DNA from: Bradyrhizobium diazoefficiens
GTDB taxonomy: Bacteria; Pseudomonadota; Alphaproteobacteria; Rhizobiales; Xanthobacteraceae
Length of the DNA: 64,000 nucleotides
NCBI RefSeq assembly: GCF_016616425.1
Contig: NZ_CP067101.1
Location: forward strand, 2,914,001 to 2,978,000
Direction: 5' to 3'
Part shown: piece after piece, positions 50,757 through 63,711 of the stretch
Position numbering within the stretch: position 1 is the stretch's first letter
How the letters are laid out: each line of letters starts with the position of its first letter
Translations under genes and position numbers: made by a program
The notes under the pieces: generated by a model
Databases searched by the model: none
What the model saw: only the letters and a program-made list of their open reading frames with translations
Told to the model about the DNA's origin: nothing

Positions 50757-51830
50757 ATGAGCAAGAAACAATACCGGATCGCGGTCATTCCCGGCGACGG
50801 CATCGGCAAGGAAGTGATGCCCGAGGGCCTGCGCGTCCTGGAAGCGGCGGCGAAGAAGCACGGAGTCTCCCTACACTTCGATCATTTCGACTTCTCGTCG
50901 TGGGACTATTACGAGAAGCACGGCCAGATGATGCCCGATGACTGGAAGGAGAAGATCGGCAAGCACGACGCCATCTACTTCGGCGCAGTCGGCTGGCCGG
51001 CCAAGATTCCGGACCATGTCTCGCTGTGGGGCTCGCTGATCAAATTCCGCAGGGAGTTCGACCAATATGTGAACCTGCGCCCGGTGCGGCTGATGCCCGG
51101 CGTGCCGTCGCCGCTGGCGGGCCGCAAGCCCGGCGACATCGATTTCTGGGTGGTCCGCGAGAACACGGAAGGCGAATATTCCTCGGTCGGCGGCCGCATG
51201 TTCCCGGACACCGACCGCGAGTTCGTGACGCAGCAGACGGTGATGACCCGCACCGGCGTCGATCGCATCCTGAAGTTCGCCTTCGAGCTCGCGCAGTCGC
51301 GGCCGAAGAAGCACCTGACGTCGGCGACGAAGTCCAACGGCATCTCCATCACCATGCCCTATTGGGACGAGCGCGTGGAGGCGATGGCCCAGAAGTTTCC
51401 GAGCGTGAAGTGGGACAAGTACCACATCGACATTTTGACCGCGAACTTCGTGCTGCATCCGGATTGGTTCGACGTCGTTGTCGGCTCGAACTTGTTCGGC
51501 GACATCCTGTCCGACCTCGGCCCGGCCTGCACCGGCACCATCGGCATCGCGCCGTCAGGCAACATCAACCCCGAGGGCGATTTCCCCTCGGTGTTCGAGC
51601 CGGTCCATGGCTCGGCGCCTGATATCGCCGGGCAGGGCATCGCCAACCCGATCGGCGCGATCTGGTCGGGTGCGATGATGCTGGAGCATCTCGGCGAGAA
51701 GGAAGCCGGCAAGTCGATTGTCGAGGCGATCGAGCGCACGCTGGCCGAGCGCACGCTCCGCACCAAGGATCTCGGCGGCAATGCCGACACGACGGCTTGC
51801 GGCAAGGCGGTTGCGGATATGGTGGATTAG
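50757..51830 (+). CDS. Tartrate/D-malate dehydrogenase (isopropylmalate dehydrogenase family)
   Basis: 357-residue NAD-dependent beta-decarboxylating dehydrogenase. VIPGDGIGKEVMPEGLRVLE, WVVRENTEGEYSSVGGRMF, the metal-binding NLFGDILSDLGPACTG and FEPVHGSAPDIAGQGIANP are typical. YYEKHGQMMPDDW and GAVGWPAKIPDHVSLWG place it with tartrate dehydrogenase/D-malate dehydrogenase rather than LeuB. A long open frame back to 49767 is only the reverse of the SDR gene; ATG 50757 is the family N-terminus. It would convert tartrate or D-malate to oxidised or decarboxylated products. Confidence 0.92.
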   Translation: MSKKQYRIAVIPGDGIGKEVMPEGLRVLEAAAKKHGVSLHFDHFDFSSWDYYEKHGQMMPDDWKEKIGKHDAIYFGAVGWPAKIPDHVSLWGSLIKFRREFDQYVNLRPVRLMPGVPSPLAGRKPGDIDFWVVRENTEGEYSSVGGRMFPDTDREFVTQQTVMTRTGVDRILKFAFELAQSRPKKHLTSATKSNGISITMPYWDERVEAMAQKFPSVKWDKYHIDILTANFVLHPDWFDVVVGSNLFGDILSDLGPACTGTIGIAPSGNINPEGDFPSVFEPVHGSAPDIAGQGIANPIGAIWSGAMMLEHLGEKEAGKSIVEAIERTLAERTLRTKDLGGNADTTACGKAVADMVD

Positions 51831-51916: not shown

Positions 51917-52990
51917 TTAGCTCACGATCTTCTCGATCGCCGCCTGATCCAGCCCGAACTTCTTCCCGGCCTCCAAGATCTCCTGCCAGGTGGTCGGATC
52001 GACCGCAATGCCTTCGGCCAGGCGCTTCTTCTTGGTCTCGCGCTCGGGCTCGCCGGCGATTCTGACCTTGTCGACGCCGGCGCCGGGCGGTGAGCCGGTG
52101 TGCCAGGCGACGAAGCTCTCGACTTCACGTGCGAGGTTTTCGCCGGTGCCGAGCTTGTCCGGGTCGATGACGATCGAGAGCATGCCGTTGAGGACGTTGT
52201 ACTTGCCGTCGGACGGACCTTTGACCACCTGCCCGCCGGAGAGCGCGCCGCCGAGGATTTCGCACACCAGCGCGAGGCCCGATCCCTTGTGCTCGCCGAA
52301 CGGCAGGATAGCGCCGTGCGGCGGGATCACGGTGTAGCGCGGATTGGTGGTCGGCTTGCCTTCGTTGTCGATGATGGTGCCGGGCTCGAGCTCGACGCCC
52401 TTGTTGTGGGCGACGCGGGTCTTGCCCTGCGCGATCCTGCTGGTGGCGAAGTCGAGCACGATCGGCGCCTTGCCCCTGCGCGGGATGCCGACGCAGAACG
52501 GGTTGGTGCCGTGACGCGCATCGCTGCCGCCCCAGGGCGCCACAATCGGGCGTGAGATCACGTTGACGAAGTGGATCGAGACAAGCCCGTGGTCGATGCA
52601 CTGCTCGGCCCAGTGGCCGATGCGACCGATATGGTGCGAGTTGGAGAGGCCGACGAGACACACACCGTTGCGCTTGGCACGCTCGGCAGCCAGCTCCATC
52701 GCTTCATGGCCGATCACCTGGCCGTAGCCGGTGAGGCCGTCGAGGGTGAGAAGCGGCCCCGTGTCGAGCACGATCTTGACGTGCTGGTTCACGGCGAGGC
52801 CGCCGTTGGTGACGCTCTGGACATAGCGGGGGATCATGCCGACGCCGTGCGAGTCATGCCCCTTGAGATTGGCCTCGACGAGATTGGTGGATACGAGCTC
52901 GGCCTCGCGATCCGAGGAGCCGCCGGCCTTGACGATGGCACGGACAGCATTGGTGAGCGCTTCGGCCTTGATGGTGCGATAGTCAGCCAT
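51917..52990 (-). CDS. Malate/L-lactate/ureidoglycolate dehydrogenase family (Ldh2) protein
   Basis: 357-residue NAD(P)-dependent 2-hydroxyacid oxidoreductase of the Ldh2 family, which includes YbiC, ComC, DpkA and ureidoglycolate dehydrogenase AllD. Family blocks are NLVEANLKGHDSHGVGMIPR, the catalytic-histidine region LSNSHHIGRIGHWAEQC, and FGEHKGSGLALVCEILGGAL. ATG 52990 is preferred over the open frame to 53035. It is the last gene of a run LysR, M20 hydrolase, D-hydroxyacid dehydrogenase, Ldh2 (gap 11 bases). With an M20 amidohydrolase in the same operon an allantoate/ureidoglycolate-like route is possible. Confidence 0.9.
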   Translation of the reverse strand: MADYRTIKAEALTNAVRAIVKAGGSSDREAELVSTNLVEANLKGHDSHGVGMIPRYVQSVTNGGLAVNQHVKIVLDTGPLLTLDGLTGYGQVIGHEAMELAAERAKRNGVCLVGLSNSHHIGRIGHWAEQCIDHGLVSIHFVNVISRPIVAPWGGSDARHGTNPFCVGIPRRGKAPIVLDFATSRIAQGKTRVAHNKGVELEPGTIIDNEGKPTTNPRYTVIPPHGAILPFGEHKGSGLALVCEILGGALSGGQVVKGPSDGKYNVLNGMLSIVIDPDKLGTGENLAREVESFVAWHTGSPPGAGVDKVRIAGEPERETKKKRLAEGIAVDPTTWQEILEAGKKFGLDQAAIEKIVS

Positions 52991-53001
52991 TGTTGTTGCT
53001 C

Positions 53002-53913
53002 TTATCCCTTCGCGATCCGGCGGCAGTGCTCCCACGCCGCTTCAATCAGGTTCTCGCTGGCCTCCGGCGTGCGGAATGCCGAATGCGCCGACAGCGTCAC
53101 ATTCGGCAGCTTGGTCAATGGATGATCGCCTGGCAGCGGCTCGATGTTGAAGACGTCGAGGCCGGCATGGCGGATGTGGCCCGACTTCAGCGCGTCGATC
53201 ATGGCGGCCTCGTCGACAACGGCGGCGCGGGCGGTGTTGATGAGGATGACGCCACGCTTCATCTTTGCGATCTTCTCGCGGGTGATCATGCCCCGCGTCT
53301 CGTCGTTGAGCAGCAGATGCAGCGACACCACGTCGCTCCTGGCCAGCACCGTGTCGAGGTCGGTGAACTCGACGCCCGGATAGCTCTTCGGCGAGCGGTT
53401 CCAGGCGATCACCTTCATGCCGCTGCCCGACGCGATGCGCGCGACCTCCGCGGCGATGCCGCCGAAGCCGATCAGGCCGAGGGTCTTGCCGGTGAGCTGC
53501 ATGCCGTCCTCGCGCAGCCAATTGCCGGCGCGCATCTCGCGGTCCATCATCGCGATGACGCGGGCCGAGGCCCACATCAGCGCGATCGCGGATTCTGCGA
53601 CAGCGGTATCGCCGTAGCCTTTGATCAGATGTACGGAGATGCCGAACTGGCTAAGTTCCTCCGGGTTCATGTAGCTGCGCGCGCCGGTGCCGAGGAACAC
53701 GACGTGCTTCAGCCCAGCGCACTTCTTCGCCACGTCGGTCGGCAATGCGGTGTGGTCGACGATCGCGATCTCGGCGCCGTCGAGAATATCAGGATATTGC
53801 TCGGGCTTGATGTCGGGGTCCCTGTGGATCCGCACCTTGGGATCATCAGGCCTCGTTAGCCGCTCCATGATCGCGGCGAGGGTTTCATTGGCGTCGACGA
53901 AAACTCCGCGCAT
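53002..53913 (-). CDS. D-isomer-specific 2-hydroxyacid dehydrogenase
   Basis: 303-residue NAD(P)-dependent dehydrogenase. The Rossmann loop is TLGLIGFGGIAAEVARIA, the active-site arginine lies in LINTARAAVVDEAA, and the catalytic histidine in TLSAHSAFRTPEA. This family reduces 2-oxoacids such as hydroxypyruvate, glyoxylate or branched oxoacids. It is 12 bases after the M20 hydrolase gene and 11 before the Ldh2 gene, so both hydroxyacid enzymes belong to one operon. Confidence 0.92.
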   Translation of the reverse strand: MRGVFVDANETLAAIMERLTRPDDPKVRIHRDPDIKPEQYPDILDGAEIAIVDHTALPTDVAKKCAGLKHVVFLGTGARSYMNPEELSQFGISVHLIKGYGDTAVAESAIALMWASARVIAMMDREMRAGNWLREDGMQLTGKTLGLIGFGGIAAEVARIASGSGMKVIAWNRSPKSYPGVEFTDLDTVLARSDVVSLHLLLNDETRGMITREKIAKMKRGVILINTARAAVVDEAAMIDALKSGHIRHAGLDVFNIEPLPGDHPLTKLPNVTLSAHSAFRTPEASENLIEAAWEHCRRIAKG

Positions 53914-53925
53914 GGCTCTCTCCGG

Positions 53926-55176
53926 TCAGGACGCGACGCCGGCAATCGCCAGCACGGTATGCATGAGAACGTTGGTGCCTGCGGCGCAGTCGGGCTGTGT
54001 TGCGTCCTCCAGCTCGTTGTGGCTGATGCCGTCCTTGCAGGGGACGAATACCATCGCCGCGGGCATGACGGTGTTGAGGTTGCAGGCATCGTGGCCGGCG
54101 CCGGAGGTGATGCGGCGCGAGGAGTAGCCGAGCGTCTTCGCCGCATTCTCGACAGCCGCAACGAGCTTGGGATCGAAATGCGTTGGCGGCTTGCGCCAGA
54201 CCAGGTCGATCTTGACCTCGACCTTGCGGCGTGCGGCGATCGCGGCAATGGCGGCGCGTAAATCGCGATCGAGTGCCTCCATGATCGCGCCGTCCGCACT
54301 GCGGCAATCCATGGTGAAGGCGATCTCGCCGGGAATGACGTTGCGCGAGGGGTTTGCGATCACGGCCTCGCCGATGGTACCGACCGCGTTCGGCCCGTGT
54401 TTCGTGGCAATCGCCTCCATTGCCAGCACGATCTCCGACAGCGTTGCCAGCGCATCGCGCCGCAGCGGCATCGGCGTCGATCCGGCATGGCTCTCGAAGC
54501 CGGAAATCTTGCCGTCGTACCAGAGCACGCCCTGGCCGGAATCGACCACGCCGATGGTCTTGCCTTCGGCCTCAAGGATCGGGCCCTGCTCGATGTGCAG
54601 CTCGACGAAGCAGCCGAGCTTCTGGAAACCGACCGGCTTGTCGCCGCGATAGCCGATAGCGTCGAGCGCCTGGCCGACGGTCGTGCCCTCGGCGTCCTTG
54701 CGCGACAAAATGTCGTCGGTGGTGAAGTCGCCGACATAGGCGGCGGACGCCATCATTGCGGGTGCGAAGCGCGAGCCTTCCTCATTGGTCCAGTTGACGA
54801 TGCAGATCGGCGCTTCAGTCTCGATGCCGGCGTCGTTCAGCGTGCGGATCACTTCCAGCGCGCCGAGCGTCCCCAGGATGCCGTCATACTTGCCACCGGT
54901 CGGCTGGGTGTCGAGATGCGAGCCGAAGCCGACGGGCGGCTTCGACATGTCGCGGCCCTTGCGCAGGCCGAACTGAGAGCCGAGCGCGTCGACATGCACC
55001 TCGAGGCCGGCGTCTTCACAGGCCCTGCGGAACCAGTCGCGCACCTGCTTGTCTTCGTTGCTCAGCGTCAGCCGCCGCACGCCGCCCTTGGCCGTCGCGC
55101 CGAATTGCGCGGTCTCGTGAATGGAGCCCCAGAGGCGGGCGGAATCGATTTGCAGGTTGGTGGCGGCTCGGCTCAT
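53926..55176 (-). CDS. M20 family Zn-dependent amidohydrolase (allantoate/N-carbamoyl-amino acid hydrolase type)
   Basis: 416-residue hydrolase of the AllC/AmaB/HyuC group. Metal ligands are seen in GFGSHLDTQPTGGKYDG, WTNEEGSRFAP and LHIEQGPILE, and the dimer-arginine/His region in MDCRSADG and TSGAGHDACNL. These enzymes split N-carbamoyl or ureido groups from amino acids, or allantoate. ATG 55176 (MSRAATNLQIDSARLW) is chosen over the frame to 55269, which runs into the LysR gene. It lies 31 bases after lysR. Confidence 0.93.
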   Translation of the reverse strand: MSRAATNLQIDSARLWGSIHETAQFGATAKGGVRRLTLSNEDKQVRDWFRRACEDAGLEVHVDALGSQFGLRKGRDMSKPPVGFGSHLDTQPTGGKYDGILGTLGALEVIRTLNDAGIETEAPICIVNWTNEEGSRFAPAMMASAAYVGDFTTDDILSRKDAEGTTVGQALDAIGYRGDKPVGFQKLGCFVELHIEQGPILEAEGKTIGVVDSGQGVLWYDGKISGFESHAGSTPMPLRRDALATLSEIVLAMEAIATKHGPNAVGTIGEAVIANPSRNVIPGEIAFTMDCRSADGAIMEALDRDLRAAIAAIAARRKVEVKIDLVWRKPPTHFDPKLVAAVENAAKTLGYSSRRITSGAGHDACNLNTVMPAAMVFVPCKDGISHNELEDATQPDCAAGTNVLMHTVLAIAGVAS

Positions 55177-55207
55177 GCGTTCGTTCTCTCGATTGTCCGG
55201 CGCTTTT

Positions 55208-56125
55208 TCAATGACGCGCCAGCGCGGGCGCGTCAACCGCGAGGCTGCCCTGCGCAATCTGCCGTGCAAGCTCGGCCACGCGCTCCACGGCGACGACGTC
55301 GGGCGAGGCGAGCCAGCTCGCGGTGAAGGTCAGCGGCGCAATCGCGAGATCGGTGTCGAGCAACTGCAGCCGCCCGTCGGCGAGCTCGTTCTCGACGATG
55401 GCGTCGGGTATCACGGCGATGCCGAGCCCCTCGACCGCCATGTGGATGACGGTTGCGAGTGAGGCGGAGGCATGCAGGCGGATCGGCGGCAGCTCGGGCC
55501 GGTCGAACACCTCGCGCACGACTTCGTAGGGCCGCGTCTTGCGCGGGAAGGTGATGATCGGAAACCGTGCGAGCTCGGCGCGCGTCACACGGCCGTCGCC
55601 AAGCCCGAGCGAGGGGCTTGCGAGGAATCCGATCGGATAATCGGCGAGCACGCGATTGTGCACCCCGGAGGCGGACAGCGGCCCGACGACGAAAGCAAGC
55701 TCGATCTCCTGCGCGAGCAGGCGCCCGGTGAGGTTCGGCGTGATGTCGACATCGATCTCCAGCGACAGGTTGGGATAGACCTGGTTCACGCTCTTCACGA
55801 GGCGTGGCAGCCAGGTGTGCACGATGGTCTCGGCGACGCCGAGCCGCATCACCCCGCGCATCGCAGAAGCATCGCTGATCTCCGCCATCATCGCGGCGCG
55901 CAGGCCGATCAGCTTCTCGGCGTAGACCATCATCTGTCGGCCACTCGGGGTCGGTGAGGCCACGCGATGATCGCGGTTGAGGAGCTTCACGCCCATCTCG
56001 CGCTCGAGCTGGGCGATGCGCTGGGAGATTGCCGGCTGGGTCGTGTTGAGCCGTTGGGCGGCGCCTCGAAAGCTGCCGAGCTTCACAACCCAGAGGAAGG
56101 TCTCGATCGACCTGAAGTCCAGCAT
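55208..56125 (-). CDS. LysR family transcriptional regulator
   Basis: 305-residue LysR regulator: N-terminal helix-turn-helix (SFRGAAQRLNTTQPAISQRI) and a periplasmic-binding-protein-like effector domain. It is first in the operon with the M20 hydrolase and two dehydrogenases and divergent from the D-glutamate-cyclase-like gene and ABC importer. A perfect TCGATAA/TTATCGA dyad lies 17 bases before its start, fitting autoregulation and control of both sides. The effector is unknown. Confidence 0.94.
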   Translation of the reverse strand: MLDFRSIETFLWVVKLGSFRGAAQRLNTTQPAISQRIAQLEREMGVKLLNRDHRVASPTPSGRQMMVYAEKLIGLRAAMMAEISDASAMRGVMRLGVAETIVHTWLPRLVKSVNQVYPNLSLEIDVDITPNLTGRLLAQEIELAFVVGPLSASGVHNRVLADYPIGFLASPSLGLGDGRVTRAELARFPIITFPRKTRPYEVVREVFDRPELPPIRLHASASLATVIHMAVEGLGIAVIPDAIVENELADGRLQLLDTDLAIAPLTFTASWLASPDVVAVERVAELARQIAQGSLAVDAPALARH

Positions 56126-56142
56126 CGGACGGATTTCCCAAT

Positions 56143-56163
56143 CGATAAGCTATATTTATCGAG
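56143..56163. promoter_or_regulatory. LysR operator candidate in divergent promoter
   Basis: TCGATAA (56143-56149), seven bases, then TTATCGA (56157-56163): a perfect 7-bp inverted repeat with T-N11-A form, in an AT-rich island between lysR and the divergent gene. This is the usual shape of a LysR recognition site. Confidence 0.7.
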
Positions 56164-56244
56164 ATTGATTAGAAACGAAGATTAGACTTTATAGCACGCT
56201 TGGTATTGGCTTGTCTTTGTCGAGTTTATAGGCAGGTCGATCGG

Positions 56245-57060
56245 ATGACTGTTTTGGTGGCAGTGCAGCAAACTGAAACGCCCGACACGCTTCCGAGTCG
56301 CAAGGCCCGGCTCGCCTACCGCGAGGGGCTGGTCGCTTCCACCGCCGGCGTCGCGCCCGGCTTCGTCCAGGGCAATCTGGCGATCCTGCCCGCGGAATAT
56401 GCCAGCGCCTTTCACCGCTTCTGCCAGCTCAATCCGAAGCCGTGCCCCATCATCGGGATGTCCGACGTCGGCAGTCCGTACATCCCGGCGCTCGGCGCCG
56501 ATCTCGACATCCGCACCGACGTGCCGCGCTATCGCGTCTGGCGCGACGGCGAGGTCGTCGACGAGCCGACCGACGTGACTGGCTATTGGCGCGACGATCT
56601 CGTCACCTTCGTGCTCGGCTGCTCGTTCTCGTTCGAAGAGGCCCTGCTCGACGAGGGCATGCCGATCCGGCACATCGAGCGCAATGTGCGCGTGCCGATG
56701 TACCGCACCAACATCGCCTGTGGCGAGGCTGGACCGTTCGCCGGGCCCATGGTGGTGTCGATGCGTCCGTTCAAACCGGCGGACGCGATCCGCGCGGTGC
56801 AGATCACCTCGCGCTATCCCGCCGTGCACGGTGCACCCGTGCATCTCGGCCATCCGCATCTGATCGGCATCAAGGATATCGCCAAACCTGACTATGGCGA
56901 TCCGGTGCCGGTCGCCGACGACGAGATTCCGGTGTTCTGGGCCTGCGGCGTCACGCCGCAATCGGTGATCAATGCCGCGAAACTGCCGTTCGCCATCACG
57001 CATTCGCCCGGCCTGATGCTGGTGACGGATCTCAAGAACAGGACCATGGCCGTGATTTAA
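56245..57060 (+). CDS. D-glutamate cyclase family protein (DUF1445)
   Basis: 271-residue protein of the DUF1445/PSRT family, whose mammalian member (DGLUCY) converts D-glutamate to 5-oxo-D-proline. Family blocks are [50 protein letters not shown] and [12 protein letters not shown]. In bacteria it is often called a putative hydro-lyase, and the substrate is usually unknown. ATG 56245 is preferred over the open frame from 56200. It stands between the LysR operator and the ABC importer, so it probably acts on the imported compound or its product. Confidence 0.9.
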
Positions 57061-57092
57061 GAGGCAGCTTTTGCTGCTTCTTCGGGCTTTAC
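57060..57092 (+). terminator. Weak hairpin between cyclase-like gene and importer genes
   Basis: GAGGCAGC-TTTT-GCTGCTTC (57061-57080, one G-T pair) followed by TTCGGGCTTT. It may reduce, but probably not stop, transcription into the binding-protein gene. Confidence 0.4.
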
Positions 57093-57149
57093 CGCATCCA
57101 TCAATCGCTTCATTCGATCAGCCGAAATTCAGTAACAGGAGACTTTGCC

Positions 57150-58394
57150 ATGACGATCACTCGCCGAGACGTGTTGTTGGGTGCTACCGCGACTGCGGCG
57201 CTGGTGCCGCTGGCGGCGCGCGGCCAGACTTCGGAAGTCGTGATCGGCGTCATCTATCCGTTCTCCGGCGGCAGCGCGCAGCAGGGCGTCGATGCGCAGA
57301 AGGCCTACGAGACCGCGCTCGAAGTCATCAACAAGAAGACCGATTTCGACCTGCCGCTGGCGAAGGGCGAAGGCCTGCCGGGTCTCGGCGGTGCGAAGGT
57401 CCGCCTCGTGTTTGCCGACCACCAGGCCGATCCGCAGAAGGGCCGCGCCGAAGCCGAGCGTCTGATCACGCAGGAGAAGGTCTGTGCCATCATCGGCACC
57501 TATCAGAGCGCGGTCGCCGTCACCGTCAGCCAGATCTGCGAGCGCTATCAGGTCCCGTTCGTCTCCGCCGACAATTCCTCGCCGAGCCTGCATCGCCGCG
57601 GGCTGAAGTACTATTTCCGCGCGGCACCGCACGACGAGATGTACTCGGCCGCCATGTTCGACTTCTTCGACGCCATGAAGAAGAAGGGCACCAAGATCGA
57701 GACGCTGTCGCTGTTCCACGAGGACACGATCTTCGGCACCGATTCCGGCAAGGCCCAGGCCAAGATCGCCGGCGAGCGCGGCTACAAGATCCTCACCGAC
57801 ATCAAGTACCGCGCCAACTCGCCCTCGCTCTCGGCCGAGGTGCAGCAGCTCAAGTCTGCGAACGCCGACGTGCTGATGCCCTCGAGCTACACCACCGACG
57901 GCATCCTGCTGGTCAAGACCATGGCCGAGCTCGGCTACAAGCCGAATGCGATCGTGGCGCAAGACGCCGGCTTCTCCGAGAAGGCGCTCTATGACGCGGT
58001 CGGCGACAAGCTCGAAGGCGTGATCTCGCGCGGCACCTTCTCGCTCGACCTTGCGCAGAAGCGCCCGATGGTCGGCAAGATCAACGACATGTTCAAAGCG
58101 CGCTCGGGCAAGGACCTCAACGACCTCACCTCGCGCCAGTTCATGGGCCTGATCATCCTCGCCGACGCCATCAGCCGCGCCAAGTCGACCGACGGCGAGA
58201 AGATCCGCGATGCGCTGGCGGCGACCGACATCCCCGGCGAGCAGACCATCATGCCCTGGAAGCGCGTCAAGTTCGACGAGATGGGTCAGAACAACGACGC
58301 AGACCCGGTGCTGCTACAGTACCGCGGCGGCAAGTTCGTCACCATGTTCCCGCCGCAGGCTGCGATTGCTGAAGCGACTTGGCCGATGAAGTAA
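57150..58394 (+). CDS. Branched-chain-type ABC transporter substrate-binding protein
   Basis: 414-residue periplasmic binding protein of the LivJ/AmiC group. The N-terminus MTITRRDVLLGATATAALVP looks like a twin-arginine-type or Sec signal with cleavage near ARGQ. The mature part has VVIGVIYPFSGGSAQQGVDA and the type-I fold pattern (AIIGTYQSAVAVTVSQICER). It captures amino acids, amides or aromatic acids; the ligand here is unknown. It lies upstream of livHMGF and behind the LysR-controlled promoter. Confidence 0.94.
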   Translation: MTITRRDVLLGATATAALVPLAARGQTSEVVIGVIYPFSGGSAQQGVDAQKAYETALEVINKKTDFDLPLAKGEGLPGLGGAKVRLVFADHQADPQKGRAEAERLITQEKVCAIIGTYQSAVAVTVSQICERYQVPFVSADNSSPSLHRRGLKYYFRAAPHDEMYSAAMFDFFDAMKKKGTKIETLSLFHEDTIFGTDSGKAQAKIAGERGYKILTDIKYRANSPSLSAEVQQLKSANADVLMPSSYTTDGILLVKTMAELGYKPNAIVAQDAGFSEKALYDAVGDKLEGVISRGTFSLDLAQKRPMVGKINDMFKARSGKDLNDLTSRQFMGLIILADAISRAKSTDGEKIRDALAATDIPGEQTIMPWKRVKFDEMGQNNDADPVLLQYRGGKFVTMFPPQAAIAEATWPMK

Positions 58395-58404
58395 AGACTG
58401 GGAA

Positions 58405-58525
58405 GCGGGAGCTCAGACGTAGCTCCCGCCCTCATCCTGAGGAGCGGGCGTAGCCCGCGTCTCGAAGGACGAGGGTGGGCCATCCTTCGAGACGCGCGCT
58501 AGTCGCGCGCTCCTCAGGATGAGGA
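58405..58525. repeat. Hairpin plus palindromic repeat, family C
   Basis: A perfect 9-bp hairpin GCGGGAGCT/AGCTCCCGC (58405-58413 with 58421-58429) follows the binding-protein gene. After it lies a larger inverted repeat with arms CCTCATCCTGAGGAGC and GCTCCTCAGGATGAGG, with inner arms TCTCGAAGGA and TCCTTCGAGA. Such elements are common between genes in Bradyrhizobium as I recall. Here they lie inside the importer operon and could lower permease expression relative to the binding protein. Confidence 0.75.
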
Positions 58526-58546
58526 TCTCTTTCGGGGGGACGACTT

Positions 58547-59425
58547 TTGACAGCCCAAGCCATTATCCAAAGTCTCGCCAGCGGCCTCCTCATGGGGCTG
58601 CTTTACGGACTGATCGCGGTCGGCCTCGCGCTGATCTTCGGCCTGATGGACGTCGTGAACTTCGCCCATGGCGAGTTCCTGATGATCGCGATGTATGTGA
58701 GCTTCTTCCTGTTCACGTTCTTCGCGATCGATCCCCTGCTGTCGGCGCCGCTGGTCGCTGCGGCGCTGTTCGTGCTCGGAGCGGTGGTCTATCTATTGGT
58801 CGTCCGCTTCGCCATGCGCGCCAAGGCCAACGCCGGCATGGTGCAGATCTTCTCCACCTTTGGCCTTGCCATCGTGATGCGCGGCCTGGCGCAATTCTTC
58901 TTCACGCCGGATTATCGCAGCATTCCGCAGTCATGGCTCGGCGGCAAGACCATCTCGGTTGCCGGCATCTTTCTGCCGGAGCCGCAACTGATCGGCGCGC
59001 TGGTCTCGATTCTCGCCTTCGGCGGCCTCTACTTCTTCATCCACCGCACCGATTTCGGCCGCGCGCTGGAAGCGACCCGTGAGGATCCCGGCGCGGTCGC
59101 CCTGGTCGGTATCGACAAGAACCGTGTGTTCGCGCTCGGCTGGGGCCTCGGCGCAGCACTGGTCGGTCTCGCCGGTGCGATCATGGCGGTGTTCTTCTAC
59201 ATCTATCCCGATGTCGGGGCGTCCTTTGCGCTGATCGCTTATGTCACGGTCGCGCTGGGCGGTTTCGGGAGCGTGTTCGGCGCCTTTGCCGGCGGCATCA
59301 TCGTCGGTCTCGTCGAAGCGGTCACCGCCTTGGTGCTGCCGCCGTCGCTGAAATCGGTCGGCATCTACGCCGTCTATTTGCTTGTCGTCTTCATCCGGCC
59401 GCGCGGCCTGTTCGGGTCGATGTGA
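58547..59425 (+). CDS. livH: Branched-chain-type ABC permease LivH
   Basis: 292-residue membrane permease with the LivH pattern GLLYGLIAVGLALIFGLMDV, VNFAHGEFLM and the ATPase-contact loop DFGRALEATREDPGAVALVG. It starts with TTG 58547, with GGGGGGA six bases upstream; no better ATG lies near. Its stop overlaps the livM start. It forms the channel together with LivM. Confidence 0.92.
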   Translation: MTAQAIIQSLASGLLMGLLYGLIAVGLALIFGLMDVVNFAHGEFLMIAMYVSFFLFTFFAIDPLLSAPLVAAALFVLGAVVYLLVVRFAMRAKANAGMVQIFSTFGLAIVMRGLAQFFFTPDYRSIPQSWLGGKTISVAGIFLPEPQLIGALVSILAFGGLYFFIHRTDFGRALEATREDPGAVALVGIDKNRVFALGWGLGAALVGLAGAIMAVFFYIYPDVGASFALIAYVTVALGGFGSVFGAFAGGIIVGLVEAVTALVLPPSLKSVGIYAVYLLVVFIRPRGLFGSM

Positions 59426-60420
59426 TGGACAAGACTTTTGCCGCGCGGCGCCGCCGCGACCTGATCGTCGCCGCGGTGCTGGCCGCATTGGCCGCGCTCG
59501 CGCCGCTGTTCGTCAAGGACGTCTACGTCCAGAACATCCTGATCCTGACCTTGATGTATGCGGCGCTGTCGCAGAGCTGGAACATCCTCTCCGGCTATTG
59601 TGGACAGATCTCGCTCGGCCACGCGCTCTATTTTGGCATCGGCGCCTACGCCACCGAGCTGCTGTTCACCAAGTTCGGCGTCCTGCCCTGGTTCGGCATG
59701 CTCGCCGGCGGCGCGATCGCAGCGATCATCGCGATGGGGCTCGGCTATCCCTTCTTCCGCCTGCGCGGCCATTACTTCGTGATCGCGACTATCGTCATCG
59801 CCGAGATCGGCCTGCTGCTGTTCCAGAACTGGGAATGGGCGGGGGCTGCGATGGGCATCACCATTCCGGTGCGTGGCGACAGCTGGCTGAAATTCCAGTT
59901 CATGCGCAGCAAGCTGCCGTACTTCTATTTCGCCCTGGTGCTCTGCGGCCTCGCCTGGTTCGTCACCTGGTGGCTGGAAGACTCGAAGTGGGGTTTTTGG
60001 TGGCGCGCGGTGAAGGACAATCCGGAGGCGGCCGAGAGCCTCGGCGTCGTCGTGTTCAATTCCAAAATGGGCGCGGCTGCCGTCTCCGCCTTCCTCGTTG
60101 CCATCGGCGGCGCCTTCTATGCGCAGTTCCTCGCCTATATCGACCCTGAAAGCGTGATGGGCTTCCAGTTCTCGCTGCTGATGGCGCTGCCGGCCGTGCT
60201 CGGCGGCATCGGCACCCTCTGGGGGCCAGTGCTGGGCGCGGCCATCCTGATCCCGATGACGGAGCTGACGCGTTCCTATATCGGCGGCTCGGGCCGCGGC
60301 GTCGACCTCATCGTCTACGGCACCTTGATCGTGCTGATCTCGCTCGCCCTGCCGCAGGGGCTGGTGAGTCTGTTCTCCCGCTCAAAGTCCAAGAACCAGG
60401 CAAAGGGAGCCACGCGATGA
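59425..60420 (+). CDS. livM: Branched-chain-type ABC permease LivM
   Basis: 331-residue membrane permease with the LivM signature LSQSWNILSGYCGQISLGHA and the contact loop KDNPEAAESLGVVVFNSK. ATG 59425 overlaps the livH stop; a GTG one codon earlier is also in frame. It ends with an ATGA overlap with livG, so all four transporter genes are coupled. Confidence 0.93.
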   Translation: MDKTFAARRRRDLIVAAVLAALAALAPLFVKDVYVQNILILTLMYAALSQSWNILSGYCGQISLGHALYFGIGAYATELLFTKFGVLPWFGMLAGGAIAAIIAMGLGYPFFRLRGHYFVIATIVIAEIGLLLFQNWEWAGAAMGITIPVRGDSWLKFQFMRSKLPYFYFALVLCGLAWFVTWWLEDSKWGFWWRAVKDNPEAAESLGVVVFNSKMGAAAVSAFLVAIGGAFYAQFLAYIDPESVMGFQFSLLMALPAVLGGIGTLWGPVLGAAILIPMTELTRSYIGGSGRGVDLIVYGTLIVLISLALPQGLVSLFSRSKSKNQAKGATR

Positions 60421-61148
60421 CCGCGCTCCTTGAAACCCGCGGCGTCTGGCAGCGGTTCGGCGGCCTCGTCGCCAACAGCGACGTCTCGATCTCGGTCGGG
60501 CGCGGGGAGATCGTCGGCCTGATCGGCCCGAACGGCGCCGGCAAATCGACGCTGTTCAATCTCATCGCCGGCGTGCTGCCGCCGACGCAGGGGTCGATCT
60601 GGTTCGACGGCGAGGACGTCACCCGCATGCCGGCGGCCGAGCGCTGCCAGCGCGGGGTGGGGCGCACCTTCCAGGTGGTCAAGAGCTTCGAGACCATGAC
60701 CGTCATCGACAACGTCATCGTCGGTGCGCTCGTGCGCAACACCGTGATGCGCGAAGCCCGTCGCAAGGCGCATGAAGTCCTGGAGTTCACCGGCCTTGCC
60801 GCGCGTGCCGACGTGCTCGCGAGCGACCTCGTGCCGGCCGAGAAGCGCCGCCTCGAGGTCGCGCGCGCGCTCGCGACCGAACCGAAGCTATTGCTGCTCG
60901 ACGAGGTCCTCACGGGCCTGACGCCGACCGAGGCACAGACGGGCGTGGCGCTGGTGCGCAAGGTGCGCGACACCGGCGTCACGGTCCTGATGGTCGAGCA
61001 CGTCATGGAAATCGTGATGCCGCTGGTCGACCGCGCCATCGTGCTCGATCTCGGCAAGGTGCTGGTCGATGGCAAGCCCGCTGACGTCGTTCGCGATCCC
61101 AAGGTAATCAGCGCATATCTGGGAGATCGTCATGCTCAGCGTGCGTGA
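60417..61148 (+). CDS. livG: Branched-chain-type ABC ATPase LivG
   Basis: 243-residue ATPase: Walker A GPNGAGKST, Q-loop GRTFQVVKSF, Walker B LLLLDEVLTGLTPTEA, and switch His in MVEHVMEIV. The signature loop reads DLVPAEKRRLEVARAL, in which the usual LSGG/LSYG is replaced by LVPA; the change is odd but the rest is normal. The gene overlaps livF by 17 bases. Confidence 0.92.
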   Translation: MTALLETRGVWQRFGGLVANSDVSISVGRGEIVGLIGPNGAGKSTLFNLIAGVLPPTQGSIWFDGEDVTRMPAAERCQRGVGRTFQVVKSFETMTVIDNVIVGALVRNTVMREARRKAHEVLEFTGLAARADVLASDLVPAEKRRLEVARALATEPKLLLLDEVLTGLTPTEAQTGVALVRKVRDTGVTVLMVEHVMEIVMPLVDRAIVLDLGKVLVDGKPADVVRDPKVISAYLGDRHAQRA

Positions 61149-61836
61149 AGTGACGACCGCCTATCAGGGCCTGGTCGCGATCTCCGCGGTCTCGATCGAG
61201 GTCCAGAAGGGCGAGATCGTCTGCGTCGCCGGTGCCAATGGCGCGGGCAAATCGACGCTGCTCAAGTCCATCGCCGGCGCCGAGCGCCCGCGCTCGGGCA
61301 CGGTGACGTTCGACGGCAAGCGCCTCGACGGCATGGCGCAGCATCACATCACCGCCACCGGCATCGCCTATGTGCCGGAGAACCGCCGTCTGTTCCCGCG
61401 CCTCTCGGTGCGCGACAATCTGCGTCTCGGCAGCTATCTGTATCGCGGCGAGGCGAACCGGGAGGAGCCGCTCGATCTCGTCTTCAACCTGTTCCCGCGT
61501 CTGTCCGAACGCCTCGAGCAGCGCGCCGAAACGCTCTCCGGTGGCGAGCAGCAGATGCTCGCGATTAGCCGCGCGCTGATGACGCGCCCGCGGCTTCTGA
61601 TGCTGGACGAGCCCTCGCAAGGCATCATGCCAAAGCTGGTCGACGAGATTTTCCAGGCGGTGAAGCGCATCCGCGACGCCGGCATGACCGTCCTGATCGT
61701 TGAGCAGCGTATGGCCGAATGCCTCGAGATCGCCGACCGCGCCTACATCCTGCAAACCGGCCGCGTGCTGATGCAGGGACCGGCCGCGGAGATCAGGGGC
61801 AATCCGGACGTGAGGAAGGCGTATCTGGGGCTGTAG
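61132..61836 (+). CDS. livF: Branched-chain-type ABC ATPase LivF
   Basis: 234-residue ATPase: Walker A GANGAGKST, signature TLSGGEQQMLAISRAL, Walker B LLMLDEPSQGIMPKLV and His replaced by Gln in IVEQRM, which is usual for LivF. It is the last gene of the importer and completes a full HMGF set. It ends before a palindromic repeat that separates it from the convergent otnC. Confidence 0.94.
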   Translation: MLSVREVTTAYQGLVAISAVSIEVQKGEIVCVAGANGAGKSTLLKSIAGAERPRSGTVTFDGKRLDGMAQHHITATGIAYVPENRRLFPRLSVRDNLRLGSYLYRGEANREEPLDLVFNLFPRLSERLEQRAETLSGGEQQMLAISRALMTRPRLLMLDEPSQGIMPKLVDEIFQAVKRIRDAGMTVLIVEQRMAECLEIADRAYILQTGRVLMQGPAAEIRGNPDVRKAYLGL

Positions 61837-62016: not shown

Positions 62017-62691
62017 CTAATGCCCGTGCCCATGATCCGGCAGCGTCACCCCAAACACCTTCACCAGATCCGCCACCTGCTCCGGCGACAGATGCCGCGG
62101 GTTCGTCCCACGGAGCAGCAGATACAGCTTCGCCGTCTCCTCCAGTTCTTCCGTCGCGAACACTGCGGCTTCCAGCGTGTCGCCTGCGACCACCGGGCCG
62201 TGATTGGCAAGCAACACCGATGAATATCTCCCCGCCAGTCCCTTGATCGCGTCCGCCACCGCTGGGTCGCCGGGACGATAATAGGGCACGAGCGCAGTGG
62301 CGCCGCATTTCATCAGGTAATAGGCGGTCATCGGCGGCAGCGCGGCGCGCGGGTCGATCTCGGGCAGCATCGACAGCGCCACCGAATGGGTCGAGTGCAG
62401 GTGCACGATCGCGCGCGCACTCCCGCGCGTGTCGTACAGCGCGGTGTGCAGCGGAACTTCCTTGGTCGGCGCATCGCCCGAAACCAGCCGGCCCTGATCG
62501 TCCAGCCGCGACAGTCTTGCAGGATCGAGAAAGCCGAGCGAGGCGTTGGTCGGCGTCACCAGCCAGCCACCGCCGTCCAGCCTGACGCTGATATTGCCGG
62601 ACGAGCCCGGCGTCAGTCCGCGCTCGAACAGCGACCGTCCGAAGCGGCAGATATCCTCGCGCAGCCGTGTCTCATTGTTCATGGCCGTCAT
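62017..62691 (-). CDS. otnC: 3-oxo-tetronate 4-phosphate decarboxylase OtnC (class II aldolase family)
   Basis: 224-residue class II aldolase/adducin fold. The substrate phosphate loop is GLTPGSSGNISVRL, and zinc ligands lie in VHLHSTHSVALSML and the later NHGPVVAG. In threonate catabolism OtnC decarboxylates 3-oxo-tetronate 4-phosphate to dihydroxyacetone phosphate. The neighbours ltnD and otnI support this over fuculose-phosphate aldolase. ATG 62691 is preferred; the open frame to 63846 is a shadow of ltnD. The histidine-rich end is LPDHGHGH. Confidence 0.9.
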   Translation of the reverse strand: MTAMNNETRLREDICRFGRSLFERGLTPGSSGNISVRLDGGGWLVTPTNASLGFLDPARLSRLDDQGRLVSGDAPTKEVPLHTALYDTRGSARAIVHLHSTHSVALSMLPEIDPRAALPPMTAYYLMKCGATALVPYYRPGDPAVADAIKGLAGRYSSVLLANHGPVVAGDTLEAAVFATEELEETAKLYLLLRGTNPRHLSPEQVADLVKVFGVTLPDHGHGH

Positions 62692-62793
62692 GTCCGCTTG
62701 TCTCACGCTTTGGCAGCGCGGCCAAGCCGTGTTATCGGTTCGCCGAGCCGCCAAAGGGCGGCCATCCGGGAAACGTCCACAAGGGTCAGTTGC

Positions 62794-63711
62794 ATGTCCG
62801 CCTCCACGCCACAGAATCAGCGCATCGCCGTCATCGGGCTCGGCTCGATGGGATACGGCATGGCGACCTCGCTGAAGCGAGCCGGCCATACCGTCACCGG
62901 CTGCGACGTCTCGGCGGATGCTGTCGCGCGTTTCGTGAAGGACGGCGGCGCGGGTGCCAGGACGCCGGCCGGGGCGGCCAAGGGCGCGGACATCGTCGTC
63001 AGCGTGGTCGTCAATGCCGCACAGACCGAGACGATCCTGTTCGGCAAGGATGGTGCCGCCGAGACCATGCCCGAAGGCAGCGTCTTCATCTCCTCCGCCA
63101 CGATGGACCCCGATGTGGCGCGGCGCCTCGCTAGGCAGCTCGAGGCGACCGGCCGGCACTACCTGGATGCGCCGATCTCCGGCGGCGCGCAGCGCGCCGC
63201 GCAAGGCGAGCTGACGATCCTGGCCTCCGGCAGTCCGGCAGCCTTTACAAAAGCGCGGCCCGCGCTCGATGCCATGGCGGCAAAGCTTTACGAGCTCGGC
63301 GATGCCGCAGGGCAAGGCGCCGCCTTCAAGATGATCAACCAGTTGCTCGCGGGCGTGCATATCGCCGCCGCGAGCGAAGCGATGGCATTCGCAGCCAGGC
63401 AGGGCCTCGACATCCGCAAGGTCTACGAGGTGATTACGGCCTCCGCCGGCAATTCCTGGATGTTCGAGAACCGCATGCCGCACGTGCTCGACGGCGATTA
63501 CGCCCCGCGCAGCGCGGTCGAGATCTTCGTCAAGGATCTCGGCATCATCCAGGACATGGCGCGCAGTGCTCGTTTCCCGGTGCCGGTCTCTGCCGCCGCA
63601 CTCCAGATGTTCTTGATGACGGCTGCAGCGGGCATGGGCCGCGATGACGACGCGTCGGTCGCGCGGATGTATGCGCAAGTCACCGGCGTGAAGCTGCCCG
63701 GCGACAAGTAA
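62794..63711 (+). CDS. ltnD: L-threonate dehydrogenase LtnD (3-hydroxyisobutyrate dehydrogenase family)
   Basis: 305-residue NAD-dependent beta-hydroxyacid dehydrogenase. The NAD loop is IAVIGLGSMGYGMATSL, the substrate block is LDAPISGGAQRAAQGELTIL, and the catalytic lysine region is FKMINQLLAGVHIAAASEAM. SAGNSWMFENRMPHVLDGDY and SAVEIFVKDLG are typical of LtnD, which oxidises L-threonate to 2-oxo-tetronate. ATG 62794 is the family start. It is divergent from otnC and 15 bases before otnI. Confidence 0.93.
   Translation: MSASTPQNQRIAVIGLGSMGYGMATSLKRAGHTVTGCDVSADAVARFVKDGGAGARTPAGAAKGADIVVSVVVNAAQTETILFGKDGAAETMPEGSVFISSATMDPDVARRLARQLEATGRHYLDAPISGGAQRAAQGELTILASGSPAAFTKARPALDAMAAKLYELGDAAGQGAAFKMINQLLAGVHIAAASEAMAFAARQGLDIRKVYEVITASAGNSWMFENRMPHVLDGDYAPRSAVEIFVKDLGIIQDMARSARFPVPVSAAALQMFLMTAAAGMGRDDDASVARMYAQVTGVKLPGDK

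Follow-up and report, generated by a model that had tools for sequence, protein, structure and literature searches.

The locus described here is a LysR divergon at positions 51917-61836 of a 64,000-nucleotide stretch of DNA (hereafter, the window), which corresponds to positions 2914001-2978000 of C1, the single 7.14 Mb contig of a Bradyrhizobium genome. One arm encodes a LysR-family regulator, an M20-family amidohydrolase, a D-2-hydroxyacid dehydrogenase (D2HDH) and an Ldh2-type dehydrogenase, while the other encodes a PF07286 protein and a full Liv-type importer (Table 1). A preliminary description of this DNA had listed these genes; each of them is an open frame in the orientation given there, and its inventory of both arms is borne out by family models. 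As developed below, the importer side, the regulator and a remote pxpBCA operon probably form a 5-oxoproline (pyroglutamate) regulon.

Because the minus-strand genes are separated by only 31 bp (LysR to M20), 12 bp (M20 to D2HDH) and 11 bp (D2HDH to Ldh2), the minus arm begins with the LysR gene. The intergenic region between LysR and PF07286 is 119 bp long.

Table 1. Genes and promoter elements of the divergon (positions in the window)
Feature	Position	Strand	Evidence
Ldh2-type dehydrogenase (malate/lactate/ureidoglycolate dehydrogenase-like, PRK10098)	51917-52990	-	PF02615 369 bits; NF007504 542.3 > cut-off 336
D-2-hydroxyacid dehydrogenase (D2HDH)	53002-53913	-	PF02826 203 bits; alignment to 1wwk
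M20 hydantoinase/carbamoylase-family amidohydrolase	53926-55176	-	TIGR01879 432.3 > 204; NF006769 665.8 > 452
LysR-family regulator	55208-56125	-	PF00126 (HTH_1) and PF03466 (LysR_substrate)
Probable LysR operator, palindrome TCGATAA-N7-TTATCGA (includes T-N11-A)	56142-56162	.	Intergenic and genome-wide motif scans
TTAGAC, -35-like or second half-site	56182-56187	+	20 bases past palindrome core
PF07286 'D-glutamate cyclase'/putative hydro-lyase (DUF1445)	56245-57060	+	PF07286 225.8 bits; NF003969 421 > 324
Periplasmic binding protein, Liv-type	57150-58394	+	Closest solved relative 8wch (SAR11_0655)
LivH-type permease	58547-59425	+	PF02653
LivM-type permease	59422-60420	+	PF02653
LivG-type ATPase	60417-61148	+	PF00005 and PF12399
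LivF-type ATPase	61132-61836	+	PF00005 and PF12399

Probable import substrate, probable operator and the remote pxpBCA operon

Among PDB sequences, 8wch_A comes closest to the binding protein (361 bits, E 7.1e-107, over residues 17-413), the next solved relative scoring 70.9 bits. This entry is titled 'Crystal structure of SAR11_0655 bound to a co-purified ligand, L-pyroglutamate'. The two proteins share 37% identity across 272 aligned positions, in an alignment made on a low-quality AF2 model (pLDDT 49, pTM 0.45), and by its sequence relationship to 8wch the Bradyrhizobium protein is a candidate member of the pyroglutamate-binding class of Liv-type proteins. The binding protein and LivHMGF most likely take up 5-oxoproline.

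The regulator has the domain composition of a LysR-type protein, and its divergent promoter holds a palindrome that includes a T-N11-A box. A narrower T-N11-A scan, which required four of five inner arm bases, found none in this promoter, since the palindrome continues on the outer sides of the box. The strict palindrome TCGATAA-N7-TTATCGA is present in 66 of 77 Bradyrhizobium LysR/PF07286 intergenic regions (the window included) and its core, CGATAA-N7-TTATCG, in 73 of them. In the whole 7.14 Mb genome, the perfect core occurs at two places, the divergon and the promoter of pxpB, and nowhere in the reversed control. The second site (C1:4034158-4034201, palindrome match listed at C1:4034157) starts about 140 bp upstream of pxpB. 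When the palindrome was combined with TTRGAC at fixed spacing, these same two promoters were the only matches in the genome with at most one mismatch; at two mismatches, three more appeared, against one in the reversed control.

PxpABC is the 5-oxoprolinase known from Bacillus subtilis and E. coli, and it acts on L-5-oxoproline. The pxpBCA locus (L216) is the only one in this genome with a PxpA match and lies 1.06 Mb from the divergon, so that control by the divergon LysR would be exerted in trans; no match to this LysR was found within 7 kb of the second site. Family-model scans of the divergon proteins found no oxoprolinase, and the breakdown step would come from this distant operon, beyond the reach of the preliminary description. 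The remote PxpB and PxpA score above model cut-offs (TIGR00370, 151 > 145.55; NF003814, 380 > 226; NF003816, 264 > 213), PxpA misses those of all three PxpA equivalog models, and PxpC was detected by tblastn only (41%). Divergent from pxpB stands a gene for an RraA/HMG-aldolase-like protein (PRK08245 subfamily; C1:4033344-4034297, L216 6345-7298), which has the operator region in common with pxpB in all 24 pxpB loci read; in L216, it adjoins a gene for an (R)-mandelonitrile-lyase-like cupin.

The pairing of the two promoters extends to related genomes. Among 60 Bradyrhizobium genomes, 39 contain the perfect palindrome, compared with five in the reversed control. The 71 sites classified among the palindrome matches listed comprise 33 at divergons, 24 at pxpB (in 24 genomes) and 14 elsewhere. 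Among these, TTRGAC follows the palindrome at 33/33 divergon and 24/24 pxpB sites and at 0/14 of the others, and at these 57 divergon and pxpB sites the spacing is 20 bases without exception. A set of 54 LysR-PF07286 pairs (four from the same family and five from plasmids) was scanned for GATAA-N7-TTATC with at most one mismatch: it was found in 33, versus 0.28 expected from mononucleotide shuffles, and in 23/26 divergent and 10/28 codirectional pairs. A search for the bipartite pattern across 297 genomes of the order gave 24 sites in 17 genomes and none in the reversed control; 12 lie at PF07286 promoters and six at pxpB. In three other genomes (L305, L306 and L307), a bipartite site stands beside genes without a match in the query panel; by eye, one neighbor in L305 and L306 resembles a glutamine hydrolase, and a gene for an ABC binding protein was also noted.

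LysR and the entire importer are missing from two Bradyrhizobium loci, L057 and L080, and the best binding-protein match elsewhere in these genomes reaches only 41-42%. In both, PF07286 is still directly divergent to M20-D2HDH. The two losses may be separate events, since Ldh2 is present in L057 and absent from L080. In both genomes with a LysR-less divergon (n = 2, the search for LysR being limited to the divergon), the operator was lost with the regulator: the divergon palindrome is gone from both, and at pxpB the genome of L057 (L331) has kept the palindrome and lost the TTGGAC segment, while the site in the genome of L080 (L332) is unrecognizable. This pattern fits an action of LysR on pxpB in trans.

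Conservation of the locus and of its relatives

Conservation within the genus was tallied on 80 loci kept out of 345 M20 relatives. All source records are titled Bradyrhizobium, except for one contig titled Frankia sp. RB7 (JAUEPE010000042.1, L036); it holds the Bradyrhizobium locus with an M20 identity of 96% and is probably mislabeled or contaminated. M20 is found in all 80 loci, DUF1445 in 79, D2HDH in 78, LysR in 77, the binding protein in 76, LivH/M in 75, and LivG/F and Ldh2 in 74 each, part of the absences falling at contig ends (L028, L035, L037, L050, L061, L074). The flanking genes are similarly frequent (TtuC and amidase 78 each, SDR 76, threonate genes 75). With flanks and arms equally well conserved, shared gene order within the genus proves little by itself.

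As regards these flanks, a tartrate dehydrogenase gene (50757-51830; TIGR02089, 632 > 470 bits) is convergent with Ldh2 and adjoins the divergon in 78/80 loci. On the other side, 62017-63711 encodes a 3-oxo-tetronate 4-phosphate decarboxylase and an L-threonate dehydrogenase, both above NCBIfam cut-offs, which mark the start of a threonate-use locus. The threonate and tartrate dehydrogenase genes were rejected as parts of the pathway, since they belong to families of their own and no tie to it was found.

Ldh2 is missing from six of the 80 loci (L072, L073, L074, L077, L079 and L080), with D2HDH also missing from L072 and L079. Distant Bradyrhizobium loci (L120-L122) and a sister-genus locus (L119) contain D2HDH, M20, LysR, PF07286 and the importer without Ldh2, whose gene was therefore probably inserted later; it is probably a late or dispensable part of the locus. 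Binding proteins of the genus form two groups, 26 loci with 83-86% and 50 loci with 94-98% identity to the window, unlike LysR and PF07286, which exceed 90% in most loci. Replacement of alleles through recombination (window 57150-60420) is the probable origin of these two groups.

The 297 genomes of the order were also searched with four proteins, namely M20, PF07286, the binding protein and D2HDH. M20 matches (E<=1e-130) were found in 60 genomes, exceeding 75% identity only in the genome studied, its eight congeners in the sample and a single sister genome. PF07286 was found in 82 genomes (86 places), and the binding protein and D2HDH in 18 each. Neighborhoods were read by tblastn with a panel of query proteins within 9 kb of each PF07286 place. 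At the 76 places outside the family, 10 of which have a flank shorter than 7 kb on one side, the neighbors were LysR-like (51), TRAP (47), HyuAB/OPLAH-type (14), amidase (10), Pxp (9), binding protein (7), MFS (3), and M20, D2HDH and Ldh2 (1 each).

A Pxp or HyuAB/OPLAH-type gene is located near 23/76 of these places, compared with one of 20 loci centered on M20 or D2HDH (L123-L127, L206-L215, L217-L219, L222, L223). Of the nine places of the binding protein outside the family, eight were read (all except that in G161), and six have oxoprolinase-type genes, Pxp in L128, L130, L131 and L132 and HyuAB-type in L135 and L136; the tblastn panel found none near the binding protein in L129 and L133. 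In L128, the NCBIfam names of PxpB and PxpC fit, with scores below cut-off. Among five plasmid records with a binding-protein match, three carry such a gene: PxpBCA beside the relative in Azospirillum oryzae, an oxoprolinase-type gene with a glutamate dehydrogenase in Agrobacterium fabrum and HyuAB in Roseomonas gilardii. None was found near the relatives on the Terrarubrum and Methylobacterium records. Other genera have LysR genes with 42-57% identity close to PF07286 and a Liv importer.

M20 relatives at 61-65% identity (L123-L125) have no neighbor matching the panel besides ABC-ATPases; plasmid-borne relatives are at best 54% identical, and the two regions opened are pyrimidine-degradation neighborhoods. 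The preliminary description knew of no pathway with this exact set of genes. The combination is real and lineage-specific, confined in this sample to Bradyrhizobium and one sister-genus genome; M20 and D2HDH each occur within 9 kb of only one of the 76 extra-family PF07286 places. Its expectation that the arms would be conserved together held for these two genera and failed beyond them in the sample.

The two arms could be mere neighbors, LysR and the importer serving 5-oxoproline and M20, D2HDH and Ldh2 something else. This view, which is compatible with the 5-oxoproline reading of the import side, accounts for the importer/PF07286/LysR unit found without M20 and D2HDH outside the family and for flanks conserved as well as the arms. 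It is nonetheless doubtful, as LysR heads the minus arm 31 bp from M20, L057 and L080 retain PF07286 beside M20 and D2HDH after loss of LysR and the importer, and an oxoprolinase-type gene, PF07286 and a D2HDH of 38% identity are adjacent in L134.

PF07286 and the enzymes of the minus arm

The PF07286 protein scores far above the gathering threshold of its family (225.8 against 25 bits). Its solved bacterial relatives, 3db9 and 2pif, are named only as UPF0317 proteins, and we know of no established role for PF07286 in bacteria. A PF14336 profile search of the genome gave no match; the controls were silent as well, so that it makes no statement on absence.

D2HDH orthologues elsewhere, 64-74% identical, are often located beside RidA, a D-amino-acid dehydrogenase and an Asp/Glu/hydantoin-racemase-like gene. 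The orthologues in L206-L212 stand with combinations of these genes, a thiamine pyrophosphate (TPP) enzyme and HyuAB, while the plasmid orthologues (L217-L219) stand with RidA and an aldolase or FAD oxidases. These surroundings suggest amino-acid-derived 2-oxo or imino acids as substrates. In L206-L209, from two Bradyrhizobium and two other genomes, a second D2HDH locus groups D2HDH, the TPP enzyme, the D-amino-acid dehydrogenase and the racemase-like gene, with RidA in three of the four, and resembles a D-amino-acid route.

Such contexts, together with the curated name of PF07286 as a D-glutamate cyclase and its persistence beside M20 and D2HDH in L057 and L080 despite the loss of LysR and the importer, could mean that the locus serves chiefly D-glutamate or 5-oxo-D-proline. 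PF07286 would then be central, with D2HDH and Ldh2 handling 2-oxoglutarate and 2-hydroxyglutarate. We consider this unlikely: the ligand in 8wch is the L-form, as is the known substrate of PxpABC, no D-amino-acid dehydrogenase was seen among the divergon genes, and the cyclase activity of a stand-alone bacterial PF07286 protein is putative.

The M20 protein belongs to the hydantoinase/carbamoylase family and passes broader subfamilies named allantoate amidohydrolase (NF006769, Table 1; NF006771, 429.7 > 399). Its alignment with N-carbamoyl-amino-acid hydrolases covers the full length and, in alignments to solved relatives, M20 and D2HDH retain the residues that we take to be catalytic, including the Arg/Glu/His triad of D2HDH. 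M20 falls below the AllC equivalog (TIGR03176, 252.2 < 597.75) and the ErtE N-carbamyl-L-glutamate amidohydrolase model (NF058540, 349.5 < 520). Similarly, Ldh2 falls below the models of the ureidoglycolate dehydrogenase AllD (TIGR03175, 148 < 496.2) and of L-sulfolactate dehydrogenase (NF040650, 235.5 < 500).

Three assignments were rejected with these scores: allantoin or ureide degradation, as a judgment, since AllC and AllD cut-offs are missed even though the broader allantoate-named subfamilies are passed; an ergothioneine-type ErtE function; and sulfolactate racemization by a pair of dehydrogenases of opposite handedness, as the L-sulfolactate dehydrogenase cut-off is missed and Ldh2 is absent from L119-L122. 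It is also very unlikely that the importer takes up an N-carbamoyl or ureido amino acid (allantoate, N-carbamoyl-glutamate) from which M20 would free the amino acid, the dehydrogenases then processing the oxo acid: the subfamilies passed by M20, its full-length alignment, the distant likeness of Ldh2 to AllD (148 bits) and HyuAB-type genes near relatives, which could be hydantoinases, speak for it, but the AllC, ErtE and AllD cut-offs are all missed, the binding protein and the common promoter site indicate 5-oxoproline, and M20 lies near PF07286 at a single one of the 76 extra-family places.

A probable 5-oxoproline regulon

The importer side, LysR and pxpBCA are thus probably parts of one 5-oxoproline regulon. 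This reading is built at the sequence level on gene content, the common bipartite site, the conservation of this site, its damage in the two genomes with a LysR-less divergon and the similarity to a pyroglutamate-bound protein, from which we infer the ligand, the effector, direct binding, the direction of control and all chemistry of M20, D2HDH, Ldh2 and PF07286. The substrate suggested in the preliminary description is narrowed accordingly: 5-oxoproline is strongly favored for the import and LysR side by the 8wch likeness and the site in common with pxpB, and is a third time indicated by the Pxp or hydantoinase/oxoprolinase genes that frequently adjoin extra-family relatives of the binding protein and PF07286, whereas the N-carbamoyl or ureido part of that suggestion draws on the M20 family only.

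In the proposed mechanism, the binding protein and LivHMGF would import 5-oxoproline. LysR would bind the palindrome of the divergent promoter and, in trans, the same site before pxpBCA, and would thereby turn on import jointly with the ATP-driven opening of the ring to glutamate by PxpBCA. PF07286 would probably handle the D-form (5-oxo-D-proline/D-glutamate). M20 and D2HDH would constitute a lineage-specific side branch, in which an N-carbamoyl or N-acyl derivative probably yields its free amino acid and the corresponding 2-oxo or 2-hydroxy acid is probably reduced or oxidized. As a whole, the proposal is a LysR regulon that would couple pyroglutamate import to PxpABC in trans, together with the lineage-specific M20/D2HDH side arm.

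Several observations weigh against the regulon. Likeness to 8wch does not prove an identical ligand, and the binding protein has two allele groups. The palindrome alone, at one mismatch or fewer, is near background in the genome (eight sites, six of them extra, versus five in the reversed control); its perfect form is absent from 21/60 Bradyrhizobium genomes, and the pxpB site is weaker (two to three mismatches) in ten more distant genomes, of which four (G171, G194, G216, G236) carry LysR and six, chosen for lacking the perfect palindrome, were not checked for it. Six of the 24 order-level bipartite sites are at unrelated genes, two of them beside other LysR-family genes. The co-loss test comprises two genomes in which relocation of LysR elsewhere was not searched for; in L331, the palindrome survives and damage is limited to the TTGGAC part, and L057 additionally lacks the TtuC, SDR and amidase neighbors. 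Finally, at 53 of the 76 extra-family PF07286 places no oxoprolinase of either type is nearby. The HyuAB-type proteins that were scanned, from L085 and L136, score best with caprolactamase models of NCBIfam, below cut-off, so that other lactamases or hydantoinases may be counted under the HyuAB/OPLAH type.

A broader scheme, which we hold to be rather improbable, would make the two loci a LysR-controlled pathway for both 5-oxoproline enantiomers or for legume-derived substituted 5-oxoprolines. PF07286 would open or close the D-lactam, M20 and D2HDH would form a new side route, and the RraA/HMG-aldolase-like enzyme would cleave a 4-hydroxy-2-oxo acid, giving stand-alone bacterial PF07286 a physiological role. 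To our knowledge, such a two-enantiomer pathway has no described counterpart.

With the regulon proposed here, a 'branched-chain' importer and an orphan LysR become testable components of 5-oxoproline use, and the site CGATAA-N7-TTATCG-N20-TTRGAC connects, at the sequence level, two loci 1.06 Mb apart. Since other genera of the order also have LysR-PF07286 pairs with a similar palindrome, a single set of assays could help to assign PF07286 as well as Liv-type importers that currently bear branched-chain amino-acid annotations.

Compared with known systems, the M20 protein belongs to the same hydantoinase/carbamoylase family as ErtE and AllC, but scores below both curated cut-offs. The PF07286 domain is shared with the mammalian D-glutamate cyclase DGLUCY, while the Bradyrhizobium protein is a stand-alone domain. 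Of the solved sequences, SAR11_0655 is nearest to the binding protein, over almost the full length and within the same Liv-type family; its crystal holds L-pyroglutamate, whereas the Bradyrhizobium ligand is predicted from sequence, at the identity given above. With the PxpABC 5-oxoprolinase, the link is the bipartite site that the pxpB promoter has in common with the divergon, and the difference is the distance of the operon. Close counterparts are the LysR-PF07286-transporter-oxoprolinase clusters of other Proteobacteria (Azospirillum L083, Agrobacterium L220, L128, L130 and L131), which contain related LysR, PF07286, binding protein and LivHMGF genes and, in L128, L130, L131 and L220, the palindrome within one mismatch. 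These clusters hold the oxoprolinase inside, where Bradyrhizobium has M20, D2HDH and, in most loci, Ldh2 instead.

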